Positions 47,713-53,552 of a stretch of 64,000 nt of DNA are shown here, piece by piece. The stretch's first letter is position 1. The number at the start of each line of letters is the position of its first letter. Location of the stretch: the NCBI GenBank assembly GCA_016200895.1, contig JACQDX010000048.1, positions 1-64,000 of the forward strand, read 5' to 3'. Below the pieces are notes generated by a model. It did not search any database and was not told the DNA's origin. It was given only the letters and a program-made list of their open reading frames with translations. The stretch is from Burkholderiales bacterium. GTDB taxonomy: Bacteria; Pseudomonadota; Gammaproteobacteria; Burkholderiales; Burkholderiaceae_D. The position numbers and the translations under genes are program-made.

Positions 47713-48771
47713 TTATGTGCGTGCCCGCATAATAAACTGCGCATAGTCTTGCCAGGCAGTCTCCATGCCATACAGGCAGCCCCTGATCTGGTTCAGCAAT
47801 GCCGTGGCATGCAGTTGCCGTTGCTGTTTTTGCCTTTCCTGAAAATTTGCCTTCGCCAGTGGCGTGCCCAAGTCAGCTGCGCACAGTGCTTCAGACAATC
47901 CGCAGGACAAACCTTGCGAAGAAAGGATGTCACGAGCCAGGGCAGCATCGCCGATCAGCACGCTACGCTCAGACGTGGCCCATTGTAGCGAAACCGGATG
48001 GCCCATGCCGCCTTGGAACTCCGCCAGATCTGACAAACCCTGCAGCACCCAGCCAGCCCCGGCGCTTTGTAATAATTGCTGTAATTCTCCTGCACTACCT
48101 TTGACTGCATTGCCACGCCCGACAAAAACGACATTCTGTACCTGGGATGTCGCCAGGCTGTAGACGTAGCCCTGGGGCAGTGCAGCCAATTTAAAGTGTG
48201 GCTGGAAATTTCCTGGTTGCCGGGTTTGGCGGGCCAGCGTGAACAGGCGGGCCACCCAGGGTTGTTGCGATTTGTCTATGCTGCTGGCAGTCCTGGCGGC
48301 GCGGCCACTGGCGTCGATCAGCAGGTCGGCGTGCCAGTCGTCGCTATTGCCACTATCAGCGCCATTGGCACCGGCGTCATGCAATTGCAGGCTTTGTTCG
48401 CCAAGGCGCAGGTGGATACGCGGTTCCTGCAAAAGCTTTTGCCACAGGGCCTGCTCCAGCGCGGGGCGGTGGATGTGTACGGTCTTGGGTGTAGGCAGAG
48501 ACAGGCTGGTCTTGCTGTCCCACTGTATCTGCCTGAGATCATGCGCTTGGTCAGCTCCGATCAGGTGGGGATGGATGCCATATTCCAGCAGTAATGCCAG
48601 CAGGCTGACGGGGACAGCCTCGATGCGGTAGCCGCTCCCGTCAGCATCAACACTGGCAGGCGGGTCTGCGGCTAGTAATAACACAGGGCCGCGGCCTTGC
48701 CTGGCTGCATGCAAGGCCGCCAGTATGCCAACCGGGCCATTGCCAAGCACCGCAACACGATAATGATTCAT
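47713..48771 (-). CDS. FAD-dependent oxidoreductase, LodB-like
   Basis: A 352-residue flavoprotein. The FAD motif VLGNGPVGILAALHAARQG is at about residues 8-26. The second FAD motif is LIGDAALARDILSSQGLSCG near residue 300. The layout is that of the halogenase-related flavoproteins (LodB, GoxB) that hydroxylate the Trp precursor of cysteine tryptophylquinone in LodA-type oxidases. The ATG overlaps the stop of the preceding gene (ATGA), so it is the last gene of the operon. The proposed role, hydroxylating the Trp in the adjacent CTQ-site protein, is an inference from family and position. Confidence 0.8.
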   Translation of the reverse strand: MNHYRVAVLGNGPVGILAALHAARQGRGPVLLLAADPPASVDADGSGYRIEAVPVSLLALLLEYGIHPHLIGADQAHDLRQIQWDSKTSLSLPTPKTVHIHRPALEQALWQKLLQEPRIHLRLGEQSLQLHDAGANGADSGNSDDWHADLLIDASGRAARTASSIDKSQQPWVARLFTLARQTRQPGNFQPHFKLAALPQGYVYSLATSQVQNVVFVGRGNAVKGSAGELQQLLQSAGAGWVLQGLSDLAEFQGGMGHPVSLQWATSERSVLIGDAALARDILSSQGLSCGLSEALCAADLGTPLAKANFQERQKQQRQLHATALLNQIRGCLYGMETAWQDYAQFIMRART

Positions 48772-50501
48772 AAGCCCGGCGGCGGGGCGACAGGGGTAAA
48801 ACGGGCATCACTGATGGTATCGAAAGACAGCAGGAAACCCGCATGGATCACGGCTCTGGCAGCGCTGCCAAAACCGTTGGCGGCAACCATGTCGCCACGC
48901 GCCGAGTTAATATCCACCGCCCCCTGGGGCATGCCCGCCTGGTAACCGGCATACAGTTTTTCCAGCAAGTTGCGGTAAGCTTTTTGCAGAGCCTTGTAGG
49001 TGCTGTTGCTGGCAGGTGCCTGTACCAGGGGCTGGTGCAGATACTGGCTGGGCTGGAAGCCTTGCAGCCATACCTGCATGTTCTCAAAGGTTTCAAAGTG
49101 ATCCTGACCCTCTGCCATGATGTAGCGTATGCCCTGGCAGTCTGCATCGCTACCAAAACCTGGCTGGCGCAGGGTAGCGTAGATACGTGCATATAAATCG
49201 TCGGCACCTCTGTTGGCCTGTTCCAGGGCCAGGAAATCTTGCAGGGATTGCGGGTCGAGTATCCTCGCACGTACCGGGCGCTGATTGCCAGCGGCATCAG
49301 GAATCGTTTTGGCTACTTGCAAAGCCGGTGTATAGGCAGGGCCATTAAGGGAAAGCAGCACATTATTGACAACCCGCAGGTGGCGCATTTCTCCATAGGC
49401 GATGCGCATGAGTTCAGCAAAGCTGACCGTGACATTGTTGCGCAGATCACCCGCTGCCAGCGTCGCCGGGCTCAGCAGCGAATAGGCTGCCGACAGGTAT
49501 TCCTGGATGGCAGCTAGTTCCAGACCGGCTGCATAACGCAGGTATAACTGTAATTCTTCTCTGGATGCCAGTGGGAGTGCAGTGAACTTGCCTGGCTTAT
49601 AGGGGCGTATGGTTTCGCGGCCTTCCAGCACGAAGTTCAGGGTTTGCCACTGGTGGTTGATGGCGTAATGGCCCAGTTCTACTGGCTCATTAATGTCGGC
49701 GGGTGCAGGCGGTGTGTTGCCTATGCGTCTGTCCAGTCTTTCCCATGGCACTGCGGCCAGCCAGGGCACGCCAGGTTCGCTGGCATCGGGTGTCGGTGGC
49801 TGGGCAATGTCAGGATGATTGCTGGCCCAGTAAAAGCAACCACAATCGCGGAAATCATGGGTCCAGGGGCTGCACAGGGATTGTGTGAGTTCGCCGGGTT
49901 CAAACATGGCGGCCAGGCTGCCAGTGCTGCTCAAATAGGGTGAACGCTTTCCTTGCAGTGAAATGCTGCCGGTACTGGTCTGTATTGTCAGGGTAAGGGG
50001 TGTGTTTTCTGGCAGCAGGCGTATCGCAGTCCAGGCATCCGGGGGCGAGGTGCTGATATCCGTATTGCCTGGTGGGCTTAATGTGGCAATGCTCAAATCC
50101 TGATTGCCGAAGGGACCAAAGTTGCCGTTGATCCCGGTGATCGTGCAGGGTCGGTTCTGGCTGATGTCACGCGCCAGATTGCGATATTTCTTTGCTGCGG
50201 CTGCGCTCATTGGCGTGTTTGCCGTACCCGGTGTGGTGGTGGCTGCGTCAATGCCGCTACTGTTGACAGCCACGATACGGATCTCAGTATCGTCGATGTC
50301 TACTTCAAGGAAAGGGAAAAAACGTCTTTCCAGATTACGCAAATCGGCTTCCAGGCCCGGATAACAATTACCGACGCCAGACTCCAGACGGGTAGAGACA
50401 GGATTGCCAGCAACAGGTGTAATGGCGCTGTCAGCAGTTTGTGCGCGACGCAGGGCGGCAGCATTGCGGGGGATCAGTTTGATGATGTCGGGAAGGCTCA
50501 T
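48768..50501 (-). CDS. LodA C-terminal-like (CTQ-site) region fused to a ferritin-like diiron domain
   Basis: A 577-residue protein (an alternative GTG start adds 20 repeat-encoded residues). Residues about 1-260 resemble the cofactor-bearing C-terminal part of LodA/GoxA: GVGNCYPGLEADLRN (C46) corresponds to the CxGGxFxPGIE motif. PGELTQSLCSPWTHDFRDC with FYWASNHPDI corresponds to the PGDLTxxMxxPWxxDFxxC...PD motif (candidate W213, H215). C46 or C119 could be the partner Cys. Residues about 310-560 are a VioB/ferritin-like domain with diiron ligands: E328 (GLELAAIQEYLSAAYSL), E371/H374 (GEMRHLRVVNN), E464/H468 (AEGQDHFETFE). A two-domain protein of this kind is, to my knowledge, not described. 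Confidence 0.75.
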   Translation of the reverse strand: MSLPDIIKLIPRNAAALRRAQTADSAITPVAGNPVSTRLESGVGNCYPGLEADLRNLERRFFPFLEVDIDDTEIRIVAVNSSGIDAATTTPGTANTPMSAAAAKKYRNLARDISQNRPCTITGINGNFGPFGNQDLSIATLSPPGNTDISTSPPDAWTAIRLLPENTPLTLTIQTSTGSISLQGKRSPYLSSTGSLAAMFEPGELTQSLCSPWTHDFRDCGCFYWASNHPDIAQPPTPDASEPGVPWLAAVPWERLDRRIGNTPPAPADINEPVELGHYAINHQWQTLNFVLEGRETIRPYKPGKFTALPLASREELQLYLRYAAGLELAAIQEYLSAAYSLLSPATLAAGDLRNNVTVSFAELMRIAYGEMRHLRVVNNVLLSLNGPAYTPALQVAKTIPDAAGNQRPVRARILDPQSLQDFLALEQANRGADDLYARIYATLRQPGFGSDADCQGIRYIMAEGQDHFETFENMQVWLQGFQPSQYLHQPLVQAPASNSTYKALQKAYRNLLEKLYAGYQAGMPQGAVDINSARGDMVAANGFGSAARAVIHAGFLLSFDTISDARFTPVAPPPGL

Positions 50502-50502
50502 T

Positions 50503-50538
50503 TTATATTCCTTATATTCCTTATGTTCCTTATGTTCC
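50503..50538 (-). repeat. Four tandem 9-base units forming the ribosome-binding region
   Basis: On the minus strand: GGAACATAA twice, then GGAATATAA twice, directly before ATG 50501. Each unit brings an AAGGAA Shine-Dalgarno-like block. The array fills the whole gap between the radical SAM stop and the next start. Confidence 0.75.
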
Positions 50539-50541
50539 AGC

Positions 50542-51891
50542 TTATGCTGGCGTGCTGGCACGTGGTGATGGCAGACAATGGGTAAAATAATCCGGCCTGG
50601 CCTGGCTCAGTTCGCAATAAGACTGCAGACAAAAAGTCAGCCAGCGCCGGATGTAGTTGCAGGAAGCCACACTGCGGCTGGCTTTTTCCTGGTGGCAGCC
50701 GCCTGAACACAGGTAACGCGCCCAGCAAGTCTGGCAATCGGTCTGGGCATGTACATGGCGCTCTTGCAAAAACTGCAGACGTTTGGGCGCATCCAGCGCA
50801 TGCCGGTCACCCAGCTTGTAGGTTTCTTCACCGATGGCACGGTGGCAGGCATACCAGTCGCCATTGCTGGCAACAGAAAAATAACCTCCACCTGCGCCAC
50901 AGGGGTAAGGGCTGCTGGCACCAACATGCAATTGCTTCAGGGCAGTGGCGAAATTGCTCAAGCGTATCTGCTGCCCCTGCAAGGCGCGCTGCAGTTCCCG
51001 GCTGGCCAGGCTGACCATGGCTAGTTCATAGACTGGCCAGTCTTGATCCTGCAATGCCAATGCTGAACCGCTGCGCAAGGGCGAGAAGCCTATGTCCTGG
51101 AAGCCCAGCGCGGCGATGGCGTCAAACTGCTGGTCCAGGTCAAGCGAGAGGCTGTTGGCCGTGGCACGGGCCGCCAGTTTGCACATCCCGGGTGTGTCCA
51201 GCAAAGGCTGGCAGTGCTCAATGACTGCAGCAAAGGAATCACGTTTACCATTGAGCATGGGGCGCTGGCGGTTCTGGACGACGCTGCCGCCATCAATGCT
51301 GACGGTGACTGCAAAGCGATGCTGTCGTAGCAGTTCGTGATCTTCTGGACGCAGCAAGGTGCCATTGGTGGTGACGGAATAGCGCAAGTCCAGGTGCTGC
51401 TCGCGGGCCAGCGCAGCACTGTAGTGCACGCACTGGTGTATCAGGGCGCGATTGACAAAGGGTTCGCCGCCGATAAACCCCAGGGTCAGCGGTGCTTGTG
51501 GATTGGCTTCTGCCAGCAAACGGTCTATGCTGCTGCGCGCCTGCTCCCAGTCCATCCCTTTGCTTTGTTTGCCCTCAAAATTACCCTGGCTGGCATAGCA
51601 ATAGCTGCAGCCCAGATTGCAACTGGAACTGACATTCAGCGACAGGCTTTGTACTGTCGGCAGGCTCAGAGAGTCGAGACTGGCTTCATTGTGTAGAGTA
51701 TGTGCCAGCATCTGGCTGAGGACATGATCGAGGCTGGCATCAGTGTCAGCATCAGCATCAGCATCGGTTTCTTGTTCTGGCAGGTCATAAATCTGGCTGT
51801 GCGGTACCACCAGTAAATGCTGACCCAGGCTGGACCTGAAACGGTAACTGCCCGGTGCATGCACAGCAGAGGGGAGTGGCAGCAGACTCAT
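50542..51891 (-). CDS. Radical SAM/SPASM maturase-type protein
   Basis: A 449-residue enzyme. The radical SAM motif SSCNLGCSYCYA (C91, C95, C98) is followed by GGEP at 141-144. The C-terminal SPASM/twitch region has CGAGGGYFS (C331), WYACHR (C349), DCQTCW (C386, C389), YLCSGGC (C395, C399) and C411, enough for two auxiliary [4Fe-4S] clusters. This resembles peptide- and protein-modifying maturases such as QhpD, which builds thioether bonds in quinohemoprotein amine dehydrogenase. Residues about 41-53 are an Asp/Ala/Thr repeat. It overlaps the upstream LodA-like gene by ATGA. The likely substrate is one of the two LodA-like chains. Confidence 0.88.
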   Translation of the reverse strand: MSLLPLPSAVHAPGSYRFRSSLGQHLLVVPHSQIYDLPEQETDADADADTDASLDHVLSQMLAHTLHNEASLDSLSLPTVQSLSLNVSSSCNLGCSYCYASQGNFEGKQSKGMDWEQARSSIDRLLAEANPQAPLTLGFIGGEPFVNRALIHQCVHYSAALAREQHLDLRYSVTTNGTLLRPEDHELLRQHRFAVTVSIDGGSVVQNRQRPMLNGKRDSFAAVIEHCQPLLDTPGMCKLAARATANSLSLDLDQQFDAIAALGFQDIGFSPLRSGSALALQDQDWPVYELAMVSLASRELQRALQGQQIRLSNFATALKQLHVGASSPYPCGAGGGYFSVASNGDWYACHRAIGEETYKLGDRHALDAPKRLQFLQERHVHAQTDCQTCWARYLCSGGCHQEKASRSVASCNYIRRWLTFCLQSYCELSQARPDYFTHCLPSPRASTPA

Positions 51892-53552
51892 GTCTGGCCA
51901 CCAGCAGGATTTGTGCTGGTGCCCATGCCTGCCAGGATTTCATCCCGCCGTTCATTGGCGCGATTGGCGACAATGGCTGAACGCCCCAGTGGTGAAGCCA
52001 CGGGCGTCTGGATGATATCGTCAACCCAGCTCATCAGCAGATCATATTGCCATGTGCTGAGCGTCAGTGGCAGTGCATTCGAGTTGCGCATCAGCGGTGG
52101 CATCTGCATGCTGGTGGCATCGGCAGTTTCAGATGACCTCAGATGAAAACTCTGGCGTATCAGTTCCTTAAGCCGAGTGGGACGTAATTGCACAAAATCG
52201 TGCAGGGCCTGCAAATCAGACAGATAGCGGTGGCGTGAACGTGCATGTGTGGTCAGTGGCAAGGGATCGGCAGCATTGGCATTGGGAATCGTGAAATCTG
52301 GATTGCGCAAGAGGTCACGCCCGCCAAATGCCCGTAGTGGTTCAAGCATGCCATCACCGGTAATTTTTCTGGGCAGCCGCGCATTGGCGGGCAAGTCCAT
52401 GGAGCGCCGGTCGCGGTAGTGATCGACGTTGAACAGGCTCAGGGTTTCATAGACGCGCTCAAACAAGTCTTCTACCCAGCGTTCGCGCTCGGCTGTGGTC
52501 ATGGCGGCGTTGCGTCTGGCCATGTCGCCACTGCGGTCATTGATCTCGTCAGCCATGGACAGGAAAGGCCGGCGGTCCGGGGCAAAATCGGGTGGGGCAA
52601 CAAAGACATTGGCCGACGTGTTGAGAGTTCGTCCTGTCGCGCCGAGGAAACGCAACGTGACTTTAATCCTGGCTTCGCAGGTATCGTCGACAACACCCAG
52701 CGACAACTCATCATTGGCGTCGTTGTCATTACCATCATCCGCGCCATCATAGGTATCCCAGGGGCTGACGATCGATGCCTGGGTGCCGGTGGTACCACGC
52801 CAGCCTGCGTCTGGATTGAGGAAGTTAAAAGGTTCCAGTACCGGGGGTGCTGGGGAACCCACTGGTGGCGGATGGTTCTGGCTGGTATCTGGCGGACCAT
52901 ACACGCGCCCACGCGCGGGGGTAAAGCGAAAGCGCAGTACTTCGACATTGACTTCTGCCAGCCAGGGTTGACCATTGACTGGCTGGGGTTTGCTGAGTAA
53001 GAATTGTATGCTGCCAAGTGGAATATTGCGTCCAGTCGGTATCATGGGTGCGGTAGCGGCGGGTGGGCTGACACCCAACAGAGGGGTGTTCGCATGATTG
53101 TCAGCCGCCACTACAACAGGGGGAGTGGTGCCAAAACGCAAAAGCGGGTTGGCGGCACGCCGGGCTGCCTTGTGGTTTTGCGCGTTCACTTCCAGCGACA
53201 GATTGGCAATCGGGATCTTGAAACGCTTCAACAATGCCGGGGTCAGCGGTGTATCAATCCAGCTGCTTTCTGCCGAGCCGGGCTCTCCCATTTTTGCCCA
53301 GATTTCAAAGAAGGGGGCTACAGGCCGTATCAGCTCGCCATCGCGCAGGCTGATTTCTGTTGGCATATAAGGCTCAACTGAACTGTCAGGCAAGATACGT
53401 AGCGACCAGTCAGGTGCAATCACCGTTTCTGCATTGGCGCGCGGTGTTGGATTTTGTATCCACTGGAAAGCCTCCTGCGGCGTACTACTGCCACCCAGAC
53501 GGGCAATTGCTATAGGTGGGTTGATAAAGATGGCCTGGATGATTGCTGACAT
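51888..53552 (-). CDS. LodA N-terminal-like protein lacking the cofactor region
   Basis: A 554-residue protein with ribosome binding site GGAG eight bases before the ATG. Segments match the LodA/GoxA oxidase order: NPPIAIARLGGS (N-terminus), RPVAPFFEIWAKMG, LGVVDDTCEARIKV, NVFVAPPDFAPDRR and LPLTLSTWQYDLLMSWVDD. In LodA the last motif is followed by the Cys motif CxGGxFxPGIE. Here the protein ends about 40 residues later and contains a single Cys (in DDTCEAR), so it cannot hold the cofactor alone. That region appears in the gene two positions downstream. It is the first gene of a four-gene operon. Without the other half, no activity is expected. Confidence 0.8.
   Translation of the reverse strand: MSAIIQAIFINPPIAIARLGGSSTPQEAFQWIQNPTPRANAETVIAPDWSLRILPDSSVEPYMPTEISLRDGELIRPVAPFFEIWAKMGEPGSAESSWIDTPLTPALLKRFKIPIANLSLEVNAQNHKAARRAANPLLRFGTTPPVVVAADNHANTPLLGVSPPAATAPMIPTGRNIPLGSIQFLLSKPQPVNGQPWLAEVNVEVLRFRFTPARGRVYGPPDTSQNHPPPVGSPAPPVLEPFNFLNPDAGWRGTTGTQASIVSPWDTYDGADDGNDNDANDELSLGVVDDTCEARIKVTLRFLGATGRTLNTSANVFVAPPDFAPDRRPFLSMADEINDRSGDMARRNAAMTTAERERWVEDLFERVYETLSLFNVDHYRDRRSMDLPANARLPRKITGDGMLEPLRAFGGRDLLRNPDFTIPNANAADPLPLTTHARSRHRYLSDLQALHDFVQLRPTRLKELIRQSFHLRSSETADATSMQMPPLMRNSNALPLTLSTWQYDLLMSWVDDIIQTPVASPLGRSAIVANRANERRDEILAGMGTSTNPAGGQT

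Follow-up and report, generated by a model that had tools for sequence, protein, structure and literature searches.

A split LodA-type protein encoded with QhpD- and QhpG-like helpers in a Burkholderiales bacterium, and its widespread relatives

A four-gene locus of a Burkholderiales bacterium raises the question of how a protein of the LodA/GoxA type, the oxidases that carry cysteine tryptophylquinone (CTQ), would be matured when it is encoded as two chains and a radical S-adenosylmethionine (SAM) gene separates the two halves. The locus lies in the window, the whole analysed stretch of 64,000 nucleotides (contig JACQDX010000048.1 of assembly GCA_016200895.1, positions 1 to 64,000). Our comparative analysis points, with a probability of roughly 0.7, to an oxidase of LodA fold whose maturation involves thioethers made by the radical SAM protein and tryptophan dihydroxylation of the QhpG kind, in the manner of quinohemoprotein amine dehydrogenase (QHNDH). 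The notable point is the broad LodA-like family with QHNDH-type helpers and not the fission in the window, which represents a rarer branch. The features of the locus are as follows.

51888..53552, minus strand: P1, 554 amino acids, LodA/GoxA-type N-terminal half (hhalign against classical LodA N-termini)
50542..51891, minus strand: P2, 449 amino acids, QhpD-like radical SAM/SPASM protein with the motif CNLGCSYC (TIGR03906, 6e-76, below cut-off)
48768..50501, minus strand: P3, 577 amino acids from the ATG, C-terminal (CTQ) half of LodA type with a fused ferritin-like domain
47713..48771, minus strand: P4, 352 amino acids, QhpG-like flavin adenine dinucleotide (FAD) monooxygenase-like protein (NCBIfam)
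49809..49874, minus strand: CTQ core of P3 with C210, D216, C220, C222, W225 and D231, the bonds among them being predicted
50349..50366, minus strand: motif NCYPGLE of P3 (C46...E51), candidate third thioether
48771..49586, minus strand: ferritin-like PF12902 domain of P3
50503..50538, strand unassigned: 9-bp tandem repeat in four copies, directly upstream of the P3 start

The initial annotation had described four minus-strand open reading frames (ORFs) at these coordinates, with 4-base ATGA overlaps at the P1/P2 and P3/P4 junctions, which the ORF check reproduced; the gap between P2 and P3, given there as 41 bases, measures 40. P1 has no Pfam match at E<=1, and its assignment as the LodA N half is based on the profile-profile match to classical LodA N-termini: compared with the N-termini of 32 classical LodA loci by hhalign, the P1 family scored 101.5 over 350 columns, the match covering P1 residues 12-517, while the best of 60 column-shuffled controls reached 24.2. 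Residues 188-231 of P3 match LodA_C in Pfam at E 9e-4, below cut-off, and the C-half family scored 64.3 against classical LodA C-termini. Both halves of the fold that defines LodA/GoxA CTQ oxidases (LodA_N and LodA_C) are thus represented; the NCBIfam scores lie far below the LodA/GoxA equivalog cut-offs, whose models describe whole chains. The residues expected of LodA/GoxA, i.e., the CTQ cysteine C220, the CTQ tryptophan W225 and the active-site aspartate D216, are invariant, and the CTQ Cys and Asp positions are common to P3 and LodA/GoxA. W225 would correspond by residue order to Trp581, with a shorter loop. Hence the earlier description of a split LodA-type chain with its CTQ half on the 577-residue protein and its halves separated by a radical SAM gene, and of a ferritin-like domain (PF12902, P3 residues 321-432) fused to the CTQ half is borne out.

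The initial annotation expected this architecture, if real, to be new; that it is singular is not supported, as the arrangement recurs in relatives and is one form of a widespread cassette. A search with P3 of 294 genomes of the family gave matches in 12, the window included. One of them (G288, locus L022) has all four genes of the window's locus, 83-91% identical; nine match C-half stretches, and the eight of these that were inspected show a five-gene form (BLAST and ORFs), six of the eight being recovered again in a scan of genome contigs; the match in G192 is weak and lies inside a long LodA-like ORF. From the 206 relatives found by the contig scan, 80 were examined. Ferritin-like, N, C, radical SAM and FAD modules occur together in 76/80 loci; contig ends truncate L083 and L126, L076 is missing most of N together with the ferritin-like gene, and L131 carries its FAD gene on the opposite strand. 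A radical SAM gene is present in 78/80 loci, spanning five phyla, and of the two loci in which it is missing, one is truncated at the end of its contig. According to ORF calls, LodA is encoded as one ORF in 43 loci and as two in 37, and three changes between split and fused forms are needed on the radical SAM tree. Among plasmids, 14 of 19 matching records were analysed, and the window's order (N, radical SAM, C fused to ferritin) was found as well in R. sophoriradicis, R. etli, Microvirga, two Nostoc and one Streptomyces plasmid. An FAD gene of QhpG-like or P4-like type lies close by in each of these plasmid loci; in one Nostoc it is found upstream, on the other strand.

The sequence of the CTQ core of P3 is LC210SPWTHD216FRDC220GC222FYW225ASNHPD231. 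Passages of PMC8172795 give the crosslinks of QhpC as Cys7-Glu16, Cys27-Asp33 and Cys41-Asp49, with CTQ formed from Cys37 and Trp43; the mature form of QhpC from qhp operons agrees with 1JMX. The core aligns with QhpC at C210/D216, C220/W225 (the CTQ pair) and C222/D231, and the QhpC crosslink residues occur in order in P3-type cores, the spacing of Cys27/Asp33/Cys37 being exact, that of Cys41/Trp43 off by 1-2 and that of Cys7/Glu16 off by 4. The two extra cysteines, C210 and C222, were found in 96/96 relatives read, as opposed to none of 35 classical loci with a readable motif, where C220 is present in 35/35. A pattern built for QhpC and the C halves matched, among 7190 ORFs, 100 C-type ORFs (recognised by PW in the core), three QhpC ORFs and no others. 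At E<=1, NCBIfam QH_gamma was matched by 41 of 49 C halves (best 0.0068) and LodA by 36; the QH_gamma cut-off of 50 was not reached (15.3 bits for L029). Since the residues joined by QhpD in QhpC, cysteines and acids, have counterparts in the core, the additional crosslink considered in the initial annotation becomes a specific, testable prediction.

C210, D216, C220, C222, W225, D231 and E51 are conserved in 82/82 aligned sequences, which is partly the result of selection, because the scan patterns hold C210/W213/D216 or C220/C222/W225; in the plasmid loci, found by tblastn, the CTQ core is kept in 14/14. This conservation bears on the explanation that no quinone enzyme is made and that the LodA fold is decayed or repurposed for another role. 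The halves are indeed divergent and P1 escapes Pfam, yet with every CTQ residue retained in both sets and CxxxCxxC present in 97/97 radical SAM rows (three of them QhpD), we consider such decay very improbable. C46-E51 is perhaps a third thioether, resembling Cys7-Glu16 of QhpC, and the weakest of the three candidates; LodA also has a cysteine at the C46 position.

Furthermore, the helper proteins resemble those of QHNDH. P2 matches radical SAM PF04055 at 4e-12, and its best NCBIfam model is the QhpD-type TIGR03906 (256 bits). In a quick tree, eight window-type radical SAM proteins (those of the window and L022 included) group against 86 others with an SH-aLRT (approximate likelihood-ratio test) value of 89, a grouping that was not starred in a tree carrying long-branch warnings. 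For P4, NCBIfam ranks QhpG (75 bits) above GoxB (37) and LodB (27), all below cut-offs, and QhpG was the best model for all 16 radical SAM-linked FAD proteins scanned, i.e., P4 and 15 relatives. The ten non-window-type proteins all exceed the QhpG cut-off of 240 (252-297 bits). LodB or GoxB was the best model for 10/10 classical LodA partner flavoproteins scanned (of 16 located). The initial annotation was right in assigning a flavoprotein partner to the locus; its description as LodB-like gives way to a QhpG-like one, since P4 is better described by the QhpG model. In QHNDH, QhpG dihydroxylates Trp43 of QhpC, inserting both oxygens, as stated in portions of PMC7876137.

The comparison with classical loci also weighs on the possibility that maturation follows the LodB style, with P4 alone making CTQ and the radical SAM protein acting, for example, on another peptide or on the ferritin-like domain. 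There is a weak match of P4 to GoxB and LodB, and a flavoprotein is the sole helper named for classical LodA in the part of PMC4417212 consulted. On the other hand, no radical SAM gene was found in 38 classical loci within 3-3.5 kb of sequence around each, where an FAD-type gene occurs in 36, as against 78 of 80 loci of the cassette; the two extra cysteines track the radical SAM gene, and QhpG outscores LodB/GoxB throughout. LodB-style maturation accordingly appears decidedly unlikely. A separate classical LodA-type gene, with a 1029-residue frame and a GoxB/LodB-like partner, is present in the window's own genome (contig C33, L047), and L078, L090 and L116 each show, beside the radical SAM-linked cassette, an extra ORF that looks classical-LodA-like by eye.

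Several observations weigh against the reading as a LodA-fold oxidase with QHNDH-type maturation. The patterns used to retrieve the 80 loci themselves include C210, W213 and D216 or C220, C222 and W225. C46 is missing in two of the 14 plasmid loci (present in 12). Single QH_gamma matches are weak, the best being 0.0068, and mutually non-independent, and the window's own C-half piece has no QH_gamma match, LodA alone being found at E 0.22. The hhalign comparison of QhpC with the C-half family is weak (20.9, with 3/200 shuffles as high), while that of QhpC with the C-termini of 37 classical LodA loci gave 46.5 (0/200 shuffles as high); kinship of QhpC and LodA is therefore better supported than that of QhpC and the C-half family alone, and the link of QhpC to P3-type C halves, taken by itself, is weak. 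P2 falls below the TIGR03906 cut-off (256 vs 453 bits), as does the L025 protein with 325 bits, and the window-type FAD proteins, P4 included, are all far below the QhpG cut-off of 240 (6/6, 56-131 bits). L105, a metagenome-assembled genome, has the halves and the extra cysteines with neither a radical SAM nor an FAD gene in 14.8 kb. The structure model of P3 is poor (mean predicted local confidence, pLDDT, 43.8). The model of a fused homologue matches the LodA/GoxA fold, with its residues 665-723, which include the CTQ core, under pLDDT 50.

The genes, the split, the homologies and the conserved residues are established from sequence; taken with the above reservations, the likely course of maturation would be the following. 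P1 and P3 would assemble into one quinoprotein oxidase of LodA/GoxA fold made as two chains, CTQ being formed on P3 from Cys220 and Trp225 with Asp216 as the active-site aspartate. The cofactor would be built by the QHNDH route and not by the LodB/GoxB route: P2 would form the Cys-to-Asp/Glu thioethers C210-D216, C222-D231 and perhaps C46-E51, and P4 would then dihydroxylate Trp225 before closure of the Cys220-Trp225 bond. The mature P1-P3 enzyme would oxidise an amine or amino acid and pass electrons to O2, yielding H2O2.

The ferritin-like domain adds a component whose most likely task is the handling of O2, of peroxide or of the imine product. The PF12902 match to P3 (4e-12, 46.8 bits vs a gathering threshold of 22.3) covers profile positions 1-106 of 221, and E328, E371, H374, E427 and H468 (the pattern E, ExxH, E, H), which we take to be metal ligands, are invariant in 20/20 aligned rows. 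The module is fused or nearby in 79/80 loci. Such constancy would suit a diiron oxygenase acting as the third enzyme of maturation, one that adds the first hydroxyl to Trp225 before P4 adds the second. In LodA the first Trp hydroxylation is described as autocatalytic and copper-linked. A ferritin-like gene is also found near fungal lodA genes, the part of PMC4417212 consulted placing lodA-like, lodB-like and PF12902 ferritin-like genes close together in fungal group V loci. This gene set is like that of the cassette, by description and not by sequence, and differs in that 'radical sam' has no occurrences in the text of that paper. In QHNDH both oxygens come from QhpG, and the qhp gene list in the part of PMC7876137 consulted has no ferritin-like member, which makes a hydroxylating role rather unlikely. 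Equally, the domain might take up the imine of the quinoprotein in a VioB-like manner, the cassette being a small biosynthetic pathway. VioB, the iminophenylpyruvate dimer synthase, acts after an amino-acid oxidase, and its model TIGR04492 tops the NCBIfam matches of the domain, far below cut-off (E 3.5e-4 for the window, 0.005 for L029). The likeness is weak and restricted to the shared PF12902-type domain, and neighbour families each recur in at most 10/94 loci; a pathway of this sort seems improbable. In addition to the C-ferritin fusion downstream of it, the LodA-N protein of Nostoc sp. UHCC 0302 (L168 2031-3665) has an N-terminal segment that matches the ferritin-like gene, and R. leguminosarum (L166 102-2828) has a 909-residue PF12902 protein with PSII_BNR/BNR-type matches, divergent from a split cassette.

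Among genes neighbouring the cassettes, a Dyp-type peroxidase family (so named in L163) was seen near 5/94 loci, a thin hint that would fit H2O2 formation. Annotated serine and C25 cysteine peptidases lie near rhizobial cassettes (L163 903-1877 and 7800-9344; L172 1-556); QhpC maturation likewise uses a protease, according to portions of PMC7876137. The 9-bp repeat before P3 has an AAGGA-like unit, of which the sister locus L022 has two copies as counted by eye; placed before the start codon, it could tune P3 translation.

With LodA (L-lysine 6-oxidase), GoxA (glycine oxidase) and their LodB/GoxB partners, the window's cassette shares the fold as modelled for a fused relative, homology in both halves, the CTQ Cys/Asp positions and a flavoprotein partner gene, and differs in its two chains, the QhpD-like radical SAM protein, the extra Cys 210 and 222, a flavoprotein nearer QhpG and the ferritin-like domain. 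With QHNDH (QhpC, QhpD, QhpG) it shares the QhpD- and QhpG-like helpers and the ordered crosslink residues of QhpC, and differs in that its core belongs to a protein of LodA fold, and is therefore probably part of an oxidase and not a dehydrogenase. No haem alpha or beta-propeller beta subunits were recognised by eye among the flanking ORFs, where no family search was run. As judged by sequence, the system would belong to neither group and resembles a LodA-fold CTQ oxidase with QHNDH-type maturation; it is not filed under LodA/GoxA or QHNDH because the scores of P4, P2 and P3 do not reach the features tested for each. Neither a LodA-type enzyme partnered by a radical SAM protein nor a split LodA was found described in the literature covered, which was mostly open-access and had bioRxiv preprints outside its scope.

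More tentatively, LodA-type oxidases and QHNDH may be branches of one CTQ lineage bridged by this cassette family, in which the catalytic half of a LodA-fold oxidase, in many lineages a chain of its own, would be crosslinked by radical SAM as in QhpC and dihydroxylated in the QhpG manner, with a ferritin-like diiron domain serving quinone making or product use. The widespread combination of a LodA fold with QhpC-like crosslink residues and QhpD/QhpG-like helpers means that a common origin can be tested directly. Large proteins would also join the substrates of radical SAM thioether chemistry, and a function would be found for proteins whose records read 'hypothetical', 'ferritin-like' or 'tryptophan 7-halogenase', labels which together with 'radical SAM' and 'FAD-dependent monooxygenase' are the names that parts of the cassette now carry in annotated records.
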